This document shows positions 55,510-63,960 of a stretch of 64,000 nucleotides of DNA, piece by piece. Each line of letters starts with the position of its first letter. Within the stretch, counting starts at the first letter, position 1. Source of the stretch: an uncultured Rhodocyclaceae bacterium (GTDB lineage Bacteria > Pseudomonadota > Gammaproteobacteria > Burkholderiales > Rhodocyclaceae); NCBI GenBank assembly GCA_907163075.1, contig CAJQTY010000001.1:310001-374000 (forward strand), written 5' to 3'. Both the position numbers and the translations under genes were made by a program. The notes beneath the pieces were generated by a model. The model was not told where the DNA came from. It saw nothing but the letters and a program-made list of their open reading frames with translations, and ran no database searches.

Positions 55510-56478
55510 TCAGGCAATGCGTGTTCCCGCCTTTCCGGCCAGCGCCGCGCCCATGTGCGGGATGTCGGTAACGATGCCCTCGGCGCCCGGGTTATCGCGC
55601 AAGTAGCCGAGGATCGCTTCGATTTTCGGCCCCATCGAACCTTTGCCGAAGTGCCCTTCCGCCATGTAGCGCCCGGCTTCGGCAATCGACAGCGTGTCCA
55701 GCCAGCGCTGCCGCGGCGTGCCGAAATTGATCGCGACCTGTGGCACGGCCGTGGCAATGAGCAGGCGCTGTGCGTGCAACTGGCGAGCCAGCAAGGCCGA
55801 TGCGAGATCCTTGTCGATCACCGCTTCGCGATTGCTCAGACGGCCGTCCACACCGCGCGTGACCGGAATCCCGCCGCCGCCGCAGGCAATGACAATGTGA
55901 TTGCAGGCGAGCAACTCGCGGATGGTGTCGATTTCGATCACCGCTTTCGGCTTCGGCGAGGCCACGCTGCGCCGCCATCCGCGTCCGGTCTCTTCCATGA
56001 TCGCCCAGCCGTTGTCCTGCGCCAGACGGCGCGCTGTCGGCTCGTCCATGGTTGAGCCGATCGGTTTGCTCGGCGCGTCGAACGCGGGATCGCCGGCGTC
56101 CACGACGACCTGCGTGACGACCGTGGCGACGCGCCTATCCAGCTTGCGCGCCAGCAACTCGTTGAACAGGCTGCGCTGGAACATCACCCCGATGGCGCCT
56201 TGCGTGTCGGCGGTAGCGTAATCCATCGGAACCGGCGGCACCTCGGCGATCGCCAACTCGGATCGGCGCAGAATATAGCCCACCTGCGGCCCGTTGCCGT
56301 GCGTGAGCACCACGCGCCACCCCTGCGCGGCAACGTCGACCACGTATTGCGCGGTACGCGCCGCCGCCGCCGCCTGATCCGGGAGCGACGTACCGCCGCC
56401 TTCGGGGGCGAGCGCATTGCCGCCGACGGCGATGACCAGGGTCGGATAGTCGCCCGCAGGCTGGGGTAAAACAGGCAT
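55510..56478 (-). CDS. arcC: Carbamate kinase
   Basis: 322 residues from ATG 56478, with GGAGGAGA upstream. It converts carbamoyl phosphate + ADP to ATP, CO2 and ammonia. Signatures: VIAVGGNALAPEGGG, LTHGNGPQVGYIL, VACGGGGIPV-type text (IVIACGGGGIPVTRG) and MGPKIEAILGYL. It is the last gene of the carbamoyltransferase operon, 1 base after the DUF1116 stop, so its role is most like AllK (YbcF) of E. coli allantoin fermentation, or ArcC more generally. Confidence 0.94.
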   Translation of the reverse strand: MPVLPQPAGDYPTLVIAVGGNALAPEGGGTSLPDQAAAAARTAQYVVDVAAQGWRVVLTHGNGPQVGYILRRSELAIAEVPPVPMDYATADTQGAIGVMFQRSLFNELLARKLDRRVATVVTQVVVDAGDPAFDAPSKPIGSTMDEPTARRLAQDNGWAIMEETGRGWRRSVASPKPKAVIEIDTIRELLACNHIVIACGGGGIPVTRGVDGRLSNREAVIDKDLASALLARQLHAQRLLIATAVPQVAINFGTPRQRWLDTLSIAEAGRYMAEGHFGKGSMGPKIEAILGYLRDNPGAEGIVTDIPHMGAALAGKAGTRIA

Positions 56479-56479
56479 G

Positions 56480-57907
56480 TCAGTTCTCCTCCGGCAGGTT
56501 TCTGGCCACCGCCAGCACCGCTTTGGCGAAGCAGGCAAGCGGCGCGTGGGTGATGCCGGCGCCAACCTGGCCGACGCCGGCTTCCTTGTGTGCGATACCG
56601 GTATTGATCACCGGCCGGATGCCGCTGTCGAGGACGCGGCGGGCGTCGATTCCCGCCGGCGTACCGGTGAAATCGAGCGCCGGCAGGGTGAACGCGCCGT
56701 TCTGCCCGAGCGTGACGTGCAGCATGCGCCGGGTGTTGGCCAGCGCATCGCGCGCGCTGCCGCCGACAAACTGGACGATCGCCGGTGATGCCGCCATGGC
56801 GAAGCCGCCCACACCCGCCGTCTCGGTAATGGCGCTGTCGCCCAGGTCGCGGGCGGCGTCGGCCGGCCCGTAGCCGGGGAAGAAGAGGCCGTCGACGAAC
56901 GGTGCCGGGGCGGTAAACCAGTCGTCCGAGCCGGCCAGCCGGATACCGAACTCGACGCCATTGCGCGCCATGGCCGTGAGCAGCGTCGAATGCGGAACGC
57001 CCTGCGCGGCATCGAGCATCGCTTTGCAGGCCGCCATGCTGAGATTCAGGAAAAAGTGGTCGTTGGCGGCGATGAAGGACAGCGTTTCGGCGAGCGCCCC
57101 GCGTTCCAGCCGCGTCGAGCGCAGCCCCGCCGTGCTCAGTTTGCGCAGCAGCAGCATGCTGGCGGCGACGTTGCGGTTGTGCACTTCGTCGCCCATGTGC
57201 AGCGCCTGCGCCATGAGCGGCTTGAGGTCGAGTCCGCCCAGTTCGTCTATGATCAAGGCCAGGGTCGGCGCCAGCGTTTTGGCCATCCAGCGCAACCGGT
57301 CGATGACTTCCGCGTCGTTGGCACCGAAGCGGAGCACGCGTCCGAGTCCTTCGTTCATGTTGCAATAGGCGACGTTGCCGCCCGCCGTATTGCTGACGAT
57401 CCACACCGGCATCGACGGGCTGATGATGCCGGCCATCGGGCCGACAGCGGCGTGATGGTGGCACGGTTCGAGGCGAACCTCGCCGCTCTCGATCAAGCGG
57501 CGCGCGGCGCCGATATCGCTGGCCCAGGCTTCGAACAGAACAGCGCCGAGTATGGCGCCCTGCTGCGGGCCGCACATGTCTGGCCAGGCGATCGGCGGGC
57601 CGGAATGGAGGATGATCCGGCCGCTCATGCCGGGGATCACATCGCCCGCCACCCCGACGCCGGTCAGCACCGGCTGCGACGCCAGGTAACGTCCATACGC
57701 CGTGCGGTTGGCGGCGTCGATGCGTTCGTCGGCGATCAGCCTCGCCAAGGCCCAACCGGCTTCGGCATCGCCCTCGGCCGGCGGCTGCCAGCGCAGATCG
57801 CAGGCGCTGCCGCCGCAATCGCGGATAGTCTGGCCGAATCCCGACAAACCGATGTTGATGACGGAAAGCGGCTGTTGTGTGAGCGCAGGAACGGGCTTCG
57901 CGGACAT
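56480..57907 (-). CDS. allG: DUF1116 protein, AllG (YlbE)-like carbamoyltransferase subunit
   Basis: 475 residues from ATG 57907. DUF1116 signatures include NRTAYGRYLASQPVLTGVG, LHSGPPIAWPDMCGPQQGA, EPCHHHAAVGPMAGIISPS and AMARNGVEFGIRLAG. AllG is one of three subunits (AllF, AllG, AllH) of E. coli oxamate carbamoyltransferase, which phosphorolyses oxalurate to oxamate and carbamoyl phosphate. Assignment rests on my knowledge of that complex plus adjacency to FdrA and DUF2877 genes. The actual substrate here is unknown. It is 5 bases after the fdrA stop. Confidence 0.82.
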   Translation of the reverse strand: MSAKPVPALTQQPLSVINIGLSGFGQTIRDCGGSACDLRWQPPAEGDAEAGWALARLIADERIDAANRTAYGRYLASQPVLTGVGVAGDVIPGMSGRIILHSGPPIAWPDMCGPQQGAILGAVLFEAWASDIGAARRLIESGEVRLEPCHHHAAVGPMAGIISPSMPVWIVSNTAGGNVAYCNMNEGLGRVLRFGANDAEVIDRLRWMAKTLAPTLALIIDELGGLDLKPLMAQALHMGDEVHNRNVAASMLLLRKLSTAGLRSTRLERGALAETLSFIAANDHFFLNLSMAACKAMLDAAQGVPHSTLLTAMARNGVEFGIRLAGSDDWFTAPAPFVDGLFFPGYGPADAARDLGDSAITETAGVGGFAMAASPAIVQFVGGSARDALANTRRMLHVTLGQNGAFTLPALDFTGTPAGIDARRVLDSGIRPVINTGIAHKEAGVGQVGAGITHAPLACFAKAVLAVARNLPEEN

Positions 57908-57912
57908 GGGTT

Positions 57913-59517
57913 TCAGTCTCCGGAACGGGGGGCGCGGGCGGCTTCGAGAACGGCGCGGCAGAGCGCCACCGCCCCGGCATTGCTGGCGGCCAGTTCGACG
58001 CCGGCGGCGGCGAGCGTCTGGCATTGTTCGCTGAGTCCTTGCGGGTCACCGTCGGTGCCGCAGACATGGCCGATGAAGAGGACCGTGCGTCCGGCTTGCG
58101 ACGCCGCCTGACGTGCCGCTCGCAGGGCGGGAACGATCTGCCCGGCGGGGTCGGGGTGGGCGCCGTAGCCGAGCACGAAGTCGAGCAGGACGATGGCCAC
58201 GCCGGGATCCGCGGCTTCGGCCAGCAGCCGCTCGTTGCGCAGGCCGGGGTCGATCATCGGGTGCGGACGCCCGCGCGTGAATTCGTCGTCGCCGAGGTCC
58301 AGGAGGGTGTCGCTGTGGCTCGTCCACACGTCCGCGATGCGCCCGACGCTGCCCGCCGGCGTGTTCGAGCGTAGCCCGGGCAGCGCCTCCTGCAGCATGA
58401 GCACGGCTTCGTAGCAGAACGTACCGCCGGTGTACAGGCCGCGCAAATGGCGCTGTTCGGGCCTGAGCTGCGCGGCCAGACGGCGCGCGCGCTGCGCCCG
58501 GTCCGAAGCCTCGGGCGCGTCGGCGCCGGCCATGGCGGACGCCGATGGCGACAGGCGCACGGCCTGGCGCGCGGCATCTTCGAGGGTATCGGCCGGGGTC
58601 AGGGCGAAGGCCCGGATGCTGTCGGCGGAGGCGCCGAGGAAGCAGACGACGACCGGCTTCCCGCAATGCTGCGCGGCGCGCAGCAGCGTTTCGGCGACAA
58701 CCGCCGCCGGCGGCTTGGAGACGAGTACGATGACGCGGGTCGCCGGGTCGCCGGCAAGCTGTTCGAACGCGGTCAGCATCGTCAGGCCGCCGACGGCCGC
58801 GGACAGATCATGCCCGCCGGTGCCGATGGCGTGCGTAATGCCGCCGCCGTAGTGGTCGATCAGGCAGCTTACCTGCTGCAGGCCGGTGCCGGAGGCGCCG
58901 ATCAGTCCGATGTCGCCGCGCTTGACGACGTTGGCGAACGCCAGCGGAATGCCGTTGATGATCGAGGTGCCGCAATCGGGCCCCATGACCAGGAGATTGC
59001 GCTCGCGGGCGTATCGTTTCAGCGCGACTTCCGCCTCGACGCTGACATTGTCGGAAAAGATCATGACGTTGAGGCCCAGGCGCAGCGCTTTCATCGCTTC
59101 GGCAGCGGCATAGTCGCCCGGCGTCGAGATGAGGGCGAGATTGGCTGCCTGGCCCTCCGTTTCGCCTTCGTTCGCGCCGGCCCGCTCGATCGCCATCTGG
59201 ATGCTGCGCAATGGCTCCTGCTGCGCTTCTTCGTCGCCCCGCGCGGCTTTTTCATCAAGCCAGCCCGCGGCCGTGCGCAGGGCGTCGTCCACGGCGTCGG
59301 CCTCGCCGCTCAGGACCAGGAAGATATCGTTGGGCCGCGGCTCGGGCACGGAATCGAGCACGCCGGCGCTCTTCATCAGCTCAAGGTTGGCGCGTGTCGC
59401 CATCTGCGCCGAGGCTTGCGCGACGCCCGGCAGCCGGGCCAGCCGGGCCGACAATTGCATCAGCGCTACCGAGTCGCGATAAAGGTTGGGGAAGAACCGG
59501 GTCACTACGTCAGTCAT
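57913..59517 (-). CDS. fdrA: FdrA (AllF)-like carbamoyltransferase subunit, acyl-CoA-synthetase fold
   Basis: 534 residues. The Rossmann-like fold of succinyl-CoA synthetase alpha subunits is seen in LISTPGDYAAAEAMKALRLG, VMGPDCGTSIINGIPLAFAN, IGLIGASGTGLQQVSCL and HAIGTGGHDLSAAVGG. The C-terminal half has VVCFLGA and TLLDLGDDEFTRGRPHPMIDP. This is FdrA, the AllF subunit of oxamate carbamoyltransferase in E. coli. The start overlaps the DUF2877 stop by 4 bases, indicating coupled translation and probably a stable complex. Confidence 0.9.
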   Translation of the reverse strand: MTDVVTRFFPNLYRDSVALMQLSARLARLPGVAQASAQMATRANLELMKSAGVLDSVPEPRPNDIFLVLSGEADAVDDALRTAAGWLDEKAARGDEEAQQEPLRSIQMAIERAGANEGETEGQAANLALISTPGDYAAAEAMKALRLGLNVMIFSDNVSVEAEVALKRYARERNLLVMGPDCGTSIINGIPLAFANVVKRGDIGLIGASGTGLQQVSCLIDHYGGGITHAIGTGGHDLSAAVGGLTMLTAFEQLAGDPATRVIVLVSKPPAAVVAETLLRAAQHCGKPVVVCFLGASADSIRAFALTPADTLEDAARQAVRLSPSASAMAGADAPEASDRAQRARRLAAQLRPEQRHLRGLYTGGTFCYEAVLMLQEALPGLRSNTPAGSVGRIADVWTSHSDTLLDLGDDEFTRGRPHPMIDPGLRNERLLAEAADPGVAIVLLDFVLGYGAHPDPAGQIVPALRAARQAASQAGRTVLFIGHVCGTDGDPQGLSEQCQTLAAAGVELAASNAGAVALCRAVLEAARAPRSGD

Positions 59518-60488
59518 GGCTGAAGATTCCTTTGTCGATCGCGTGTTGGCGGGCGGCCTTCCCGCGTGCCGACGGCCAGCGCCAGGCCGTCGAGCAGGCC
59601 GATCAGGCTGTCCGTGCCCGAATGCCCGCCGACAGACGCTTGCGCCCGCAGCGCGCCGCTCAGGGGGTCCGCGCTTGCACCAGCGGCGGCAGGCCGGCCG
59701 AGGGCGTCAAGCACAGCGGCCAGAGGTGCGCTCAGCCAGCCGCGACAGGCTTGATCGAGTCCATCGCGGCTAGCTCGCGTGGTCAACGATGCGTCGCGCA
59801 CATGCCCGAGCACGGCGGCACGAAGCCGCTGCCGGCGGGCGACATCGCCGCCGCCGGCGAGACCAAGCAAGAGCCCGCCCAGCATGTCGTCGCCGCTGGG
59901 CGTCAAGCCCGGACCCAGGCCGAGAGTGGCGTAAACGGCGGCGTCGAAGGCGACGGCGGACGCCTCGAACGCCGCCAGCACGGCACGATATCGGCAATGC
60001 GCCGCGTGCCAGCTCGCTAGGGGCGGCGGCCGCCCTCCCGTGAGTTCGTCGTCCAGCCAGCGGCGAGCCTGTCCCAGTCTGGCGCGCAGGATGGACGGCG
60101 GGCGCCGGCCGGCGGCGAGCGGCGGACTGTGCCAGGCTTCGCCTCGCGCCAGGTCGATCCGGGAGCCGCCGAGGACGATGCCGGCACTGTCGACGGCAAC
60201 GGACGATCCGGGAACGAGCAGCGCGTGCAGCGGCGGCCAGTCGTCCGGGTTCAGGTTGACGGTGCGCATGCCGCGCTGCGCATCGCCCGACAGCAGGGTC
60301 AGCAGTCGCCCGTCATCGAGGCCGAGATGCGCCGCGTGCGCATAGCGCGCCGCCACCCGCCCGGCGAGAGTTCGCCCCGACGGTGGACGGACGTCGCCGC
60401 CGATGCAACGCGCCGCGATCATTGGCCTGTTCCCGGGTGGCAAGCCGTTTGGTAACGCATCGACAGACTCGTCAGCGTGTCCCGGCAT
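59514..60488 (-). CDS. allH: DUF2877 protein, AllH (YlbF)-like carbamoyltransferase subunit
   Basis: 324 residues from ATG 60488; an internal Met at ~60422 is an alternative. The DUF2877 hallmark GLGPGLTPSGDDMLGG lies near residue 195, and GHSGTDSLIGLLDGLALAV near the end. DUF2877 proteins accompany FdrA and DUF1116 in gene clusters, and AllH is the third subunit of the E. coli oxamate carbamoyltransferase. It lies 6 bases after the hydrolase gene. Less conserved than its partners, so the symbol is by analogy. Confidence 0.8.
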   Translation of the reverse strand: MPGHADESVDALPNGLPPGNRPMIAARCIGGDVRPPSGRTLAGRVAARYAHAAHLGLDDGRLLTLLSGDAQRGMRTVNLNPDDWPPLHALLVPGSSVAVDSAGIVLGGSRIDLARGEAWHSPPLAAGRRPPSILRARLGQARRWLDDELTGGRPPPLASWHAAHCRYRAVLAAFEASAVAFDAAVYATLGLGPGLTPSGDDMLGGLLLGLAGGGDVARRQRLRAAVLGHVRDASLTTRASRDGLDQACRGWLSAPLAAVLDALGRPAAAGASADPLSGALRAQASVGGHSGTDSLIGLLDGLALAVGTREGRPPTRDRQRNLQP

Positions 60489-60494
60489 GATCGT

Positions 60495-61166
60495 CTACTC
60501 GCCGGCGAGCGCCGCGACGACCGCGGCCGAAGGCGCGACCCATCCGAAAATGCCGCCCTGCGCCTTGATCAGCTCCAGCCCGAGGCGCTGGTATTCGGGA
60601 AAATACGATCCGGTGGCGTCGGACACGACAAGGCATTCGAAACCCCGGTCGTTGGCTTCGCGGACCGTGGTATTGACGCAAACTTCGGTGGTGACGCCGC
60701 AGACGATCAGCGTTCTGATGCCCTTGTTGCGCAGTTTGAGTTCCAGGTCCGTGGCGAAGAAGGCACCCTTGCCCGGCTTGTCGATGATCGGCTCGCCGGC
60801 GCTCGGGTAGAGCTCGGGGATGATGTCGTGCCCCGCTTCGCCGCGAATGAGGATGCGCCCCATCGGCCCCATGTCGCCGATGCCCGTCTCCAGCCGGCCG
60901 CGCGCCAGTTTGCTCGGCGGACAGTCGGCCAGGTCCGGCGCGTGTCCTTCACGCGTATGCAGCACGAACAGGCCGCTGGCGCGCGCGGCGTCGAGTACCG
61001 CCCGGCACGGGGCGATCGCCGAGCGCAGAAGCGATACGTCGTTGCCGAGCATGGCGCCGAAGCCTCCGGGCTCAAGGAAATCGCGCTGCATGTCGATGAT
61101 GATCAGCGCCGTTTGCGCCGGATCAAACGGCAGGTCGTAAGGCTCGGCCGTGAAAGATTTGCTCAT
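60495..61166 (-). CDS. Isochorismatase-family cysteine hydrolase, biuret-amidohydrolase-like
   Basis: 223 residues from ATG 61166; the longer upstream frame overlaps the permease and is not real. The catalytic triad is Asp ~25 (IIIDMQRDF), Lys ~133 (DKPGKGAFFATD) and Cys ~163 (GVTTEVCVNTT). LEPGGFGAMLGND, HTREGHAPDLADCPPSKLARG and GPMGRILIRGEAGHDIIPEL are the pattern I associate with biuret hydrolases (BiuH) and related amidases acting on ureido compounds. It is in the carbamoyltransferase operon, so it may release or prepare a carbamoyl-bearing substrate. The exact reaction is not known. Confidence 0.8.
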   Translation of the reverse strand: MSKSFTAEPYDLPFDPAQTALIIIDMQRDFLEPGGFGAMLGNDVSLLRSAIAPCRAVLDAARASGLFVLHTREGHAPDLADCPPSKLARGRLETGIGDMGPMGRILIRGEAGHDIIPELYPSAGEPIIDKPGKGAFFATDLELKLRNKGIRTLIVCGVTTEVCVNTTVREANDRGFECLVVSDATGSYFPEYQRLGLELIKAQGGIFGWVAPSAAVVAALAGE

Positions 61167-61225
61167 GACAGACTCCAGTAAGGGTGATGACGGGCAGGCT
61201 CCATCGACTCCGAACACGACGGAGT

Positions 61226-61609
61226 TCAGCGTGTCCGGCTCTTGCTCGCCATGTATCCGCGCCAGCCATTGAACGGCGAGATGTCGACGTGTTCGGGCCG
61301 GATTTTTTCCTTCGGGTACAGTATCCCGTCGACGACGCGGCCGTCCTCCAGCCTGACCGGGCCGCAATACAGATGCGGCGGTTCCCCTGCTTCGACGCGC
61401 GCCCAGGTTTCGTCGCTCAAGGCGTAGAGTTCGCCGTCGACCGTCACGCCGCCCTGGTCGACTTCGTACATGCCGGGATGCACGTCGCCGATGCTGAACA
61501 CGCGATAGCGCGGCTCGGTGCGGAAGGAACCAAGGTACTGCGCGCCTTCCAGGTTCCCGTGCAGCACGAAGCCGCGCATCAATGTGCCGTTCACAAACAG
61601 TGTTTTCAT
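61226..61609 (-). CDS. Gamma-glutamylcyclotransferase-like (AIG2) protein
   Basis: 127 residues. It begins MKTLFVNGTLMRGFVLHGNL, the YGTL-type entry of the GGCT fold, and continues GSFRTEPRYRVFSIGDVHPGM and VDGELYALSDETWARVEAGE; the usual acid in the active site is plausibly the Glu in ALSDETW or RVEAGEP. GGCT-like domains also form the C-terminal part of allophanate hydrolases, which fits a ureide/biuret-type pathway. It lies 51 bases after the permease and 59 before the hydrolase. Confidence 0.78.
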   Translation of the reverse strand: MKTLFVNGTLMRGFVLHGNLEGAQYLGSFRTEPRYRVFSIGDVHPGMYEVDQGGVTVDGELYALSDETWARVEAGEPPHLYCGPVRLEDGRVVDGILYPKEKIRPEHVDISPFNGWRGYMASKSRTR

Positions 61610-61660
61610 TCGACTCTCCTCCTCGTTGCCGGGATTGATCGATTGCCGCGCGCGGCGTCC

Positions 61661-63262
61661 TTAGTCCATGGTTTCGCTGCCGTTGTCGATCGGCGACCAG
61701 TCGGTCTTGCCCGTTTCGCGCGCTTGCTGGTACGCGAGATAGATGAAAAGCAGCGTCGCCATCGCGTAACCGAGGCTGACCAGCGGCGAAGCATTGATCG
61801 CCAGGCGCGCGCCGTGGATGAAGCCGAAGAAGGACAGCGCCGTCGCCGCCGCGGCATACGCCGCCGCCCAGTTGAAGCGGCGGTCGATGATGAAAACGGC
61901 GATGGCGCTGATCATCAGGCCGGCGAGGACGGCGCCGCCGCCGGTCGTTTCCATGCCGTGATAGAGCACCCCGTTCTGGGCCATGCTGGCGATCAGCTCG
62001 GGCGGCAGCGCCACGGTGTTGACGCCGGCCGCCGCCAGAGCGCCGTCGATCTGCGTTTTCGCCCATTCGGCGATATTCGGCACCAACGCCAGAACGATCG
62101 CCGGCGCATGACGCTTGGGCGAGGCCTGGAAAGCCTGCGCACCGATGACGAGGCCGATGAAGAGCAGGATCGGAACGATCGAAACGAGCGGAATCACGGA
62201 CAGCAGGAAAGCGGTCAGCCCGAGGAAGCACATCAGCGCCACGCTGACGCCGGTGGCCAGCGAGTAGCCGATGCGGCCACCCATCGCCTTCCAGCCCGGA
62301 TGGCCGATATAGACGGCGGGCGGGAACGGCGAGCCAAGCAGGGCGCCGACGATGGCGCCGATCCCGTCGGCGGCCAGCACCGCGCGCAGGTTGTACTCGT
62401 CACCGCCGGCGGCGGCCGATTCGACGTTGTTGATCGCCTCGGTGAAGTTGTAGATACCGAGCGGGATCGCCGTTACCAGAAGCGGCCAGACCTTGTCCAT
62501 GGGGACCGAGAAGACATCGCCGCTAAGATAGGGCAGATGCAGTGAAAACTGCTTGAGCGCCTCGCCGACGGCGGAAGCGTGCATCATGTCGCTCATGCCG
62601 AGTGCGACGGCGCTCCAGGCGAGGACCGAACCGACGATGACGACGGCCAGGCCGCCGGGGACGCCAAACGGCAGACGCACCTGGCCGACCCAGTTGAGCA
62701 GGATGATCATGAAGCAGATCAGGCCGATCCAAGCGCCGTCGAACATCTGGTAGGCGGGACGCATCGAGATGAAGGCGATGGAAATTCCGGCCAGTGTTCC
62801 CAGCATGGCGGCGCGCGGCGTGTATTTGCGGATGGCCGGGCCGACGAACGCCCCCGCCAGAACGATCAGGCCGACGATGAAGGCCCACACCAGGCCGAGC
62901 TTCCAGGCCAGGATGGGGTCCTTGGTGATGAGCAGCGTCGGCAGCATGACCACGAACACCACGATGAACATGTGCGGCACGCTGGGACCGTACGGTAGCG
63001 CCGTCACCGTGCCGCGCCCGGCACCCTGTCTGGCGAGTTTCCAGGCCAGGTAGGCGTAGAACAGGTTGCCCAGCGGCAAGGCGACGCCCAGGGCCGGCAG
63101 GATGCGGCCGTAGACGGTATCGCCCGGTAACTGCACGACGAACAGGGTGAGGCCCGACAATACCAGCACGTTGAGCAGCACATTGGTGAAGAGACCGAAA
63201 AAGGCGTTCAGGTCGCCCGCTACCCAGAGTCTGGGATGATCGGCAGAGTGGGTTGCGTTCAC
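61661..63262 (-). CDS. NCS2/AzgA-like nucleobase-type permease
   Basis: 533 residues with about 12-14 TM helices. The start is a GTG at 63262, with AGGAG seven bases upstream, overlapping the GntR stop by 4 bases. WVAGDLNAFFGLFTNVLLNVLVL, GNLFYAYLAWKLAR, TALPYGPSVPHMFIVV and NFTEAINNVESAAAGGDEYN are characteristic of the xanthine/uracil permease superfamily. It probably imports the substrate of the downstream pathway; nucleobase or ureide are candidates. Confidence 0.85.
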   Translation of the reverse strand: MNATHSADHPRLWVAGDLNAFFGLFTNVLLNVLVLSGLTLFVVQLPGDTVYGRILPALGVALPLGNLFYAYLAWKLARQGAGRGTVTALPYGPSVPHMFIVVFVVMLPTLLITKDPILAWKLGLVWAFIVGLIVLAGAFVGPAIRKYTPRAAMLGTLAGISIAFISMRPAYQMFDGAWIGLICFMIILLNWVGQVRLPFGVPGGLAVVIVGSVLAWSAVALGMSDMMHASAVGEALKQFSLHLPYLSGDVFSVPMDKVWPLLVTAIPLGIYNFTEAINNVESAAAGGDEYNLRAVLAADGIGAIVGALLGSPFPPAVYIGHPGWKAMGGRIGYSLATGVSVALMCFLGLTAFLLSVIPLVSIVPILLFIGLVIGAQAFQASPKRHAPAIVLALVPNIAEWAKTQIDGALAAAGVNTVALPPELIASMAQNGVLYHGMETTGGGAVLAGLMISAIAVFIIDRRFNWAAAYAAAATALSFFGFIHGARLAINASPLVSLGYAMATLLFIYLAYQQARETGKTDWSPIDNGSETMD

Positions 63263-63960
63263 GGCGTATCTCCTGTCAGGGCTGGGTTAAGATAGGAACG
63301 GGCTACGAGCTGGACGACGACTTCTTCAACATTGCTCAGTGCGCTGTTGATGTTTCGTTGAAGAAATTTGCCAGCCAGCGCCGCGTCGCGCGCAACGATC
63401 GCGTGCACGATGCTGTTGTGTTCGTCGCAGGTGGTATCGAGACGCGAGCGCTGCTGGAAGTCGATTTCGCGAAAGGCGAGCAGACGTTCGTTGATCGCCG
63501 CCAGGTGCTTCATGATTAGGCGGTTGCCGTGCGCCTGCGCCAGGCTGCCATGGAATTCCTCGTCGAGCATGGCGAGTTCGGCGATGGACTTGGCCGCCAG
63601 CGACGACGGATCGTGCCACATCGCCTCCAGCGGAACGAGATCCTTCTCCGCCATGCCCTTGTCGGCCAGCGCCTGGACGACCTGCAGTTCCAGCGCCAGG
63701 CGGTACTCATACAGCTCCTTGACGTCGCGCAAGTGCAGCTGGCGTACGCGGAAACCCCGGCGCGGCAAGCGGTCGAGCAGGCCTTCGGCGGCCAGATGGG
63801 TCATCGCCTGGCGGATCGGGCTGCGGCTGACGCCGAATTCCTGCACCAGATTCTCTTCGACAAGCTGGAATTGCGGCGGATACTCCCAGGCGACGATACG
63901 GCTACGCAAGGTGCGCACCAGTCGGCGAACGCAATCCATATCATTTTCGGTGTCGGCCAT
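63259..63960 (-). CDS. GntR-family (FadR/FCD) transcriptional regulator
   Basis: 233 residues from ATG 63960. The winged helix (~15-75, QLVEENLVQEFGVSRSPIRQAMTHLAAEGLLDRLPRRGF) is joined to a helical FCD ligand-binding domain with ELYEYRLALELQVVQALA, LDEEFHGSLAQAHGN and CDEHNSIVHAIVARD (metal/ligand-site acids and His). It is the first gene of the operon, so it probably senses a pathway intermediate and represses its own promoter, which lies past the right window edge or in the last 40 bases. Confidence 0.92.
   Translation of the reverse strand: MADTENDMDCVRRLVRTLRSRIVAWEYPPQFQLVEENLVQEFGVSRSPIRQAMTHLAAEGLLDRLPRRGFRVRQLHLRDVKELYEYRLALELQVVQALADKGMAEKDLVPLEAMWHDPSSLAAKSIAELAMLDEEFHGSLAQAHGNRLIMKHLAAINERLLAFREIDFQQRSRLDTTCDEHNSIVHAIVARDAALAGKFLQRNINSALSNVEEVVVQLVARSYLNPALTGDTP

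Follow-up and report, generated by a model that had tools for sequence, protein, structure and literature searches.

A candidate operon for triuret catabolism linking a TrtA-like hydrolase to predicted AllFGHK-type phosphorolysis

Genes of the operon

We analysed a stretch of 64,000 nucleotides (nt) of DNA, here called the window, from an uncultured Rhodocyclaceae bacterium (assembly GCA_907163075.1, contig CAJQTY010000001.1, positions 310,001 to 374,000), the genome of which is 5.2 Mb in four contigs and 98% complete. Window positions 55510..63960 of the minus strand hold an operon that joins a relative of the triuret hydrolase TrtA to counterparts of the AllF, AllG, AllH and AllK proteins of Escherichia coli, and to a small protein of the allophanate hydrolase C-domain family (AH_C). 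An earlier note, made from the sequence of the window alone, had described eight tightly packed genes here, and a check of the open reading frames bore this out: all eight are intact, on the minus strand, and bounded exactly by 55510 and 63960. From the 5′ end they encode a GntR regulator, a permease, AH_C, the TrtA-like hydrolase, AllH, AllF, AllG and a carbamate kinase. In the 3′ half the carbamate kinase and AllG genes are 1 nt apart, AllG and AllF 5 nt apart, AllF and AllH overlap by 4 nt, and AllH and the hydrolase are separated by 6 nt; in the 5′ half the gaps are 59 nt (hydrolase to AH_C) and 51 nt (AH_C to permease), and the permease and GntR genes overlap by 4 nt. The neighbourhood search across genomes that the earlier note had proposed showed that this arrangement is more than chance, because the whole eight-gene order repeats in an alphaproteobacterial metagenome-assembled genome (locus L060) and the core is common to many other loci.

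Matches to Pfam and NCBIfam families upheld the AllF/AllG/AllH/AllK-like set and the GntR regulator of the earlier note, all four members of the set being encoded together in the operon. The AllF-like subunit (FdrA; 57913..59517, minus strand as for all genes below; 534 amino acids, aa) scored 482 bits against NF004760 (cut-off 433), the AllG-like subunit (DUF1116; 56480..57907; 475 aa) 309 bits against PF06545, the AllH-like subunit (DUF2877; 59514..60488; 324 aa) 59.9 bits against PF11392, and the carbamate kinase, in the role of AllK (55510..56478; 322 aa), 337 bits against NF009007 (cut-off 266). Pfam also finds CoA-ligase domains in FdrA, AA_kinase in the kinase and Isochorismatase in the hydrolase.

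The hydrolase (60495..61166; 223 aa), an isochorismatase-fold cysteine hydrolase, has its best match in the PDB in 6xix, to which it is 57% identical; its identity to two crystallised biuret hydrolases is 54–56%. The structure 6xix is that of the triuret hydrolase TrtA of Herbaspirillum sp. BH-1, which hydrolyses triuret to carboxybiuret with a kcat/KM of about 6e5 per M per s, and the active site of which is nearly like that of the biuret hydrolase BiuH, differences being named at TrtA positions 35, 41, 160 and 205, and Gln202 also being placed differently in the two (PMC7948467). We aligned 91 rows that scored best to the window hydrolase, itself included, with 22 BiuH rows; to the four published positions the alignment added a fifth, 157. 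The catalytic triad Asp24, Lys129 and Cys162 is present in 91/91 rows of the hydrolase family. The window protein has all five TrtA-type residues (Phe35, Asn41, Val157, Glu160 and Ile205), and at these positions 89–91 of the 91 family rows carry the TrtA letters, whereas all 22 BiuH rows carry others. The window protein scored below the NCBIfam cut-offs for the BiuH equivalog (283 versus 370 bits) and for RutB (111 versus 378 bits). A biuret hydrolase identity was rejected on the BiuH score and the second-shell residues, so that the biuret-hydrolase-like label of the earlier note gave way to one that points to triuret. Residues, kinship and gene context suggest that the enzyme is a triuret hydrolase, converting triuret to 1-carboxybiuret.

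The gene context was drawn from a scan of species genomes for the hydrolase, of which we used the best 80 loci out of at least 576 confirmed matches. BiuH was found at 19, AtzH at 13 and AtzE at nine of these 80 loci, no AtzE locus having BiuH. AtzE acts on 1-carboxybiuret and AtzH probably on the product of AtzE (PMC6219798). Such partners are expected of a hydrolase that makes carboxybiuret, since they act on carboxybiuret or on later compounds.

The AH_C protein (61226..61609; 127 aa) lacks an amidase domain. Its former label, GGCT-like, is corrected: the score to GGACT (46.3 bits) is above cut-off, but the AH_C model PF21986, also above cut-off, scores higher (99.4 bits), and a plain GGCT identity was rejected. 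The solved relative 5c5z, which we take to be the protein known as c4763, is by eye nearly identical to the AH_C of E. coli locus L113. Where ten out of ten aligned C-domains of the allophanate hydrolase AtzF have the motif GAH, 22/22 aligned AH_C proteins have GTLM; all 22 also have Glu-Pro (Glu76 in the window), and none of the ten C-domains has Glu there. The GAH histidine is residue 492 of the Kluyveromyces lactis enzyme by 5i8i numbering, presumably the catalytic His492. A profile alignment of AH_C to GGACT, non-significant with an E-value of 0.6, ends at residue 82 of GGACT, which we take to be its catalytic Glu, opposite Glu76. Judged by these motifs, AH_C is more than a detached AtzF C-domain. 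In AtzF the C-domain probably serves as the decarboxylase of an N-carboxy compound.

Among 22 loci with both AllFGHK and AH_C, the latter is a separate gene in 18 and fused to a neighbour in four. Two of the fusions combine AH_C with the hydrolase behind it in one open frame (L033:6176-7261 and L070:9602-10660), and two place the carbamate kinase before AH_C (L094:3910-5310 and L125:7312-9261). These fusions tie the parts into one pathway, and AH_C to both of its ends.

The permease (61661..63262; 533 aa; GTG start) had been called NCS2-like, a label that the searches did not support: the window protein has no match in Pfam, NCBIfam or the PDB, no NCS2 Pfam match was found among 28 of its relatives, and a profile alignment to a xanthine permease was weak and non-significant. 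Relatives lie inside the fetched stretch at 58 of the 80 hydrolase loci, and we regard the protein as a candidate triuret transporter and as part of what may be a new permease family for polyureas. The first gene encodes a GntR/FCD regulator (63259..63960; 233 aa; PF00392 and PF07729), and a 50% identical gene has the same first place in L060.

The host genome and the distribution of the module

We analysed by family searches what the host genome encodes and what it lacks. It has one AllG, one AH_C, a urease alpha subunit and four isochorismatase matches, of which only that of the operon is of the TrtA/BiuH type (one other reached 69 bits to BiuH, and two were weaker). Its single amidase-signature protein is GatA (609 bits, above the GatA cut-off) which, together with the single AH_C, leaves no match that could be a full AtzF or AtzE. 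Indeed, none of AtzF, AtzE and BiuH was found above cut-off in the host genome, nor was the cyanuric acid hydrolase AtzD found there. On the known pathways triuret would thus stop at carboxybiuret or biuret. No AllD was above cut-off in the whole genome either (best 122 versus 496 bits), so that oxalurate could not be made by AllD and the allantoin route could not be completed. The earlier note had held the allantoin enzymes AllB, AllC and AllD to be absent; this stands for AllD genome-wide, and no allantoin gene was recognised by eye among open reading frames of at least 150 aa in the 19 kb past the upstream end of the window, AllB and AllC not having been searched for genome-wide. A plain allantoin operon was rejected, as there is no AllD above cut-off and the AllG is not of the K-12 type.

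The window AllG is about 60% identical to that of the E. coli version of the operon, 49% to YahG and 43% to the AllG of E. coli K-12. In the AllG tree it clusters with L033 and L060 (100/99), inside a group of 18 rows that all come from hydrolase-bearing loci (90/93). The K-12 AllG stands apart from it, with L039, L042 and L044 (100/100), and YahG clusters with L096 and L136. The label ‘with hydrolase’ requires four changes on this tree, in which L071 is a very long branch.

The module of TrtA-like hydrolase, AllFGHK and AH_C is not confined to Pseudomonadota but occurs in Chloroflexota, Myxococcota and Bacillota too. AllF/AllG are found at 20 of the 80 hydrolase loci and missing from 60. AH_C without an amidase domain goes with them: all 17 such loci have AllF or AllG, compared with 3/63 loci without AH_C. 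We then compared, by genome-wide searches, 49 genomes behind the hydrolase loci, namely 30 hand-chosen from the 60 without AllFG nearby and 19 of the 20 with AllFG, genome completeness not being given. AtzF was above cut-off in 29/30 genomes without AllFG and in 6/19 with it; the Fisher p of about 1e-6 is on the raw count and is inflated, as the hydrolase tree shows no more than four switches in AllFG presence. The 2–4 independent pairs are too few to reach significance, a weakness of the interpretation given below. In no independent pairing did AtzF go the same way as AllFG. The corresponding counts were 17/30 and 6/19 for BiuH, 2/30 and 19/19 for AllG, and 28/30 and 12/19 for urease. Nine of the 19 AllFG genomes, like the host genome, had neither BiuH nor AtzF above cut-off.

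These results bear on the possibility that the operon holds two independent pathways, with the hydrolase acting on triuret or biuret and AllFGHK on imported oxalurate. In E. coli K-12, AllFGH acts as an oxamate transcarbamylase (PMC11326118), and separate triuret and oxalurate pathways are the published reading of a similar collocation in nitrifiers (PMC12625717). Yet the window AllG lies outside the K-12 group and no AllD above cut-off accompanies it; triuret hydrolysis would halt here for want of BiuH and AtzF; genomes with and without AllFGHK differ in AtzF; and AH_C is fused both to the hydrolase and to the kinase. We therefore consider two separate pathways rather improbable.

AllFGHK lies beside AH_C at 22 loci (over both locus sets, and with L113 and L140, both from E. 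coli, counted once) and beside AtzF at nine (L034, L036, L037, L038, L040, L041, L048, L062 and L063); no locus has both partners, L035, L046 and L064 have neither, and the count leaves out loci of other AllG groups (L039, L042, L044 and L049-L052). At seven of the nine AtzF is intact, remnants only being left in L037 and L041. The remnant L041:5157-5660 is an AtzF gene from which most of the central part is gone, and the near relative L040 keeps AtzF whole. At L048, L062 and L063 the TrtA-like hydrolase, AllFGHK and a full AtzF occur together with no separate AH_C. At L034, L036, L037 and L038 AllFGHK adjoins AtzF (only a remnant at L037); neither a TrtA-like gene in the fetched stretch nor an AtzD in the genome was found for these four.

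In a survey across the order, 28 of 300 genomes, the host included, had an AllG that passed the cut-off, and none of the eight genomes of the same family among those listed did, making the operon patchy. AtzD was found in 8/27 order genomes with AllG (one partial, in G180) and 1/16 without, the host being counted apart; only in G010 was it on the AllFG contig.

In E. coli LF82 the order is hydrolase, AllH, FdrA, AllG, ArcC, AH_C, a cytosine permease and a LysR regulator, adjoining ysgA and udp. A search of 5426 complete E. coli genomes for the six-gene E. coli stretch found at least 80% of it in 1542, with 127 of the places on plasmids. The six-gene core (hydrolase, AllH, AllF, AllG, carbamate kinase and AH_C; L140:9001-14965) was found in 82 PLSDB plasmids, all typed as conjugative, from Escherichia (78) and Klebsiella (four). 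Sixty of the 82 were listed with their sources, among them birds (30) and human urine (five), counts that have no baseline. The chromosomal version is genomic region GR29 of extraintestinal pathogenic E. coli, for which a part in nitrogen acquisition, resembling pyrimidine degradation of the RutB kind, has been suggested (PMC12928451). A transcriptome paper on uropathogenic E. coli (PMC7439467) was set aside, as the genes in its available part are those of the K-12-type all operon and not of this one.

The hydrolase, and with it the whole operon, might instead serve a different ureide amide, such as one that yields oxalurate or, as proposed for GR29, a ureide derived from pyrimidines. The CodB-like permease of the E. 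coli operon and the RutB-like reading of GR29 (PMC12928451) would suit this, and two facts about the hydrolase count against triuret. The family of the window enzyme is outside the characterised TrtA group, since the characterised TrtA clusters with the TrtA rows of L040 and L041 (98*); and these same two loci carry the window-type hydrolase in addition to a TrtA and a BiuH, so that it could have another substrate. The match to TrtA in active-site and second-shell residues, the missed RutB cut-off and the AtzE, AtzH, BiuH or AtzF partners at other loci, however, make such a substrate highly improbable in our judgement.

Proposed pathway and its alternatives

From what was observed, namely the gene content, the residue patterns, the families that searches of the genome did not find, the linkage kept across loci and the fusions, we infer that the operon serves triuret catabolism with substrate-level phosphorylation, an interpretation that we hold to be probable, if only by a little. 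The permease would import triuret, and the TrtA-like hydrolase would remove one ammonia from it to give 1-carboxybiuret. AllFGH would split carboxybiuret with phosphate to carbamoyl phosphate and allophanate, and the carbamate kinase would convert carbamoyl phosphate and ADP to ATP, ammonia and CO2. AH_C would handle the remaining allophanate, most simply by decarboxylating it to urea, which is the least certain step, and urea would pass to the urease of the host. AllFGHK and AH_C would thereby replace the hydrolytic sets TrtB/BiuH/AtzF or AtzE/AtzH/AtzF.

Chemistry agrees with carboxybiuret as the putative substrate of AllFGH, as oxalurate (H2N-CO-NH-CO-COO-) and carboxybiuret (H2N-CO-NH-CO-NH-COO-) differ by one inserted NH. 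The hydrolytic enzymes pair likewise: carboxybiuret has AtzE, and oxalurate has HpxY, which is related to AtzE (PMC12625717). Comammox contigs reported to have allFGHK and to lack trtB (PMC12625717) we also counted in favour of the triuret pathway. The same goes, for carboxybiuret, for L046:9142-19900, where the gene run of AllF/AllG also includes an ABC transporter, a ring-opening amidohydrolase and two relatives of caprolactamase subunits, and no TrtA-like hydrolase: the amidohydrolase is above the cut-off for cyanuric acid hydrolase (448 versus 360), and the opening of cyanuric acid also gives carboxybiuret. That its nearest relative in the PDB is a barbiturase speaks against this use of L046.

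The AtzF partners of AllFGHK indicate the product. An intact AtzF next to AllFGHK would idle if AllFGH made urea or only carbamate, which favours allophanate as the probable product and hence carboxybiuret as the substrate. The same loci bear on another order of steps, in which AH_C acts first, decarboxylating carboxybiuret to biuret and CO2, and AllFGH then phosphorolyses biuret to carbamoyl phosphate and urea. Frames that join AH_C to the hydrolase, as in L033 and L070, are expected for consecutive steps and fit an action of AH_C on carboxybiuret at least as well as one on allophanate; they add weight to this order, and take some from both the two-pathway explanation and the interpretation that we prefer. 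The probable chemistry of the AtzF C-domain and the presence of urease in the host also suit it. However, seven AllFGHK loci have an intact AtzF instead of AH_C, and urea and carbamoyl phosphate as products would leave that AtzF without a task; moreover, oxalurate, the known substrate, has a carboxylate that is missing from biuret. We consider it unlikely that AH_C acts first.

AllFGH might also phosphorolyse allophanate itself (allophanate + Pi -> carbamoyl phosphate + carbamate), with biuret hydrolysis as the supply. This would explain why L071 and L096 have BiuH beside AllG without AtzF, and why archaeal contigs carry biuH with allFGHK (PMC12625717). An AtzF adjoining AllFGHK would then be redundant, though, and nine of the 19 AllFG genomes have neither BiuH nor AtzF above cut-off, so that we regard this reaction as very unlikely.

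Several further observations weigh against phosphorolysis of carboxybiuret with AH_C acting on allophanate. AH_C has no counterpart of the histidine that is invariant in the aligned AtzF C-domains, leaving its reaction ambiguous. L071 and L096 carry BiuH beside both AH_C and the hydrolase, which fits a different order of steps. Four AllFG genomes (L060, L106, L111 and L135) have AtzF elsewhere, and six have BiuH. Within the 80 loci AtzF and AllFG do not exclude each other significantly (p 0.33), only the genome-wide count separating them. In seven of the 19 AllFG genomes no urease reached the cut-off, and urea would be lost there. AtzD was not found in G059, G103, G211 and G271, which have AllFGHK and AtzF and no hydrolase in the fetched stretch. 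Finally, a profile built from five sequences found no AllH at eight of 37 loci scanned (L033, L036, L037, L038, L046, L071, L094 and L111), where AllH may be divergent, encoded elsewhere or dispensable.

The earlier note had proposed a catabolic route for ureides that conserves energy and is entered by a reaction different from the allantoin one. This is well supported by the lack of an AllD above cut-off, the separation of the AllG from that of K-12 and the TrtA-like entry enzyme; the note was right in direction but named no substrate, for which the present analysis predicts triuret. A wider proposal can be made only tentatively, and we would sooner expect it to fail than to hold: AllFGH may be a general phosphorylase class for carbamoyl-NH-CO-X-COO- compounds (oxalurate, carboxybiuret and perhaps ureidomalonate), through which diverse bacteria, including extraintestinal and poultry E. 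coli with the genes on chromosomes and conjugative plasmids, would gain ATP and nitrogen from triuret formed when urate is oxidised; the AH_C, with new chemistry, and the unclassified permease would be further new parts.

Relation to known systems

The predicted pathway shares its type of first enzyme, its substrate and its first product with the TrtA-BiuH-AtzF pathway of Herbaspirillum sp. BH-1 (PMC7948467), but neither BiuH nor AtzF was found here, and AllFGHK and AH_C would replace the later hydrolyses with a gain of ATP. With AllFGHK of E. coli K-12 (PMC11326118, PMC9843812) it has in common the four protein families and the logic of passing from carbamoyl phosphate to ATP; it differs in an AllG outside the K-12 group, in the lack of AllD above cut-off, in the linked TrtA-like hydrolase and AH_C, and in carboxybiuret as the predicted substrate. 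Carboxybiuret and allophanate are also intermediates of the AtzDGEHF cyanuric acid pathway of Pseudomonas sp. ADP, which uses hydrolysis and decarboxylation by AtzE/AtzH rather than phosphorolysis and includes AtzD, missing from the host genome (PMC6219798).

The earlier note had called the system possibly undescribed, which has to be qualified. As a collocation of genes it is already in print: nitrifier contigs have biuH and/or trtA with allFGHK (PMC12625717), and GR29 has the same families of hydrolase, AllF, AllG and carbamate kinase, read as pyrimidine degradation (PMC12928451). In their available parts neither paper joins the genes into one phosphorolytic pathway; PMC12625717 assigns the decarboxylation of carboxybiuret to an unidentified enzyme or a spontaneous reaction. 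A literature search, mostly of sources that are not subscription-only, found no proposal that triuret-derived compounds are phosphorolysed.

If the triuret interpretation is true, the operon would provide a phosphorolytic, ATP-conserving way to break a polyurea, and it predicts one specific reaction that a coupled assay could test. A function would follow for the version carried by more than a quarter of the complete E. coli genomes, for the solved protein 5c5z and for the clusters seen in comammox and in ammonia-oxidising archaea. Triuret is an impurity of urea fertiliser. It also arises from urate and peroxynitrite (as cited in PMC12625717), and the operon would tie the chemistry of urate oxidation to bacterial nitrogen and energy gain, for example in urine or in birds.

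Past the upstream end of the window, the neighbours of the operon are genes that we take to encode a DUF1343-like protein, a thiolase, a transposase-like pair and an assimilatory nitrate reductase.

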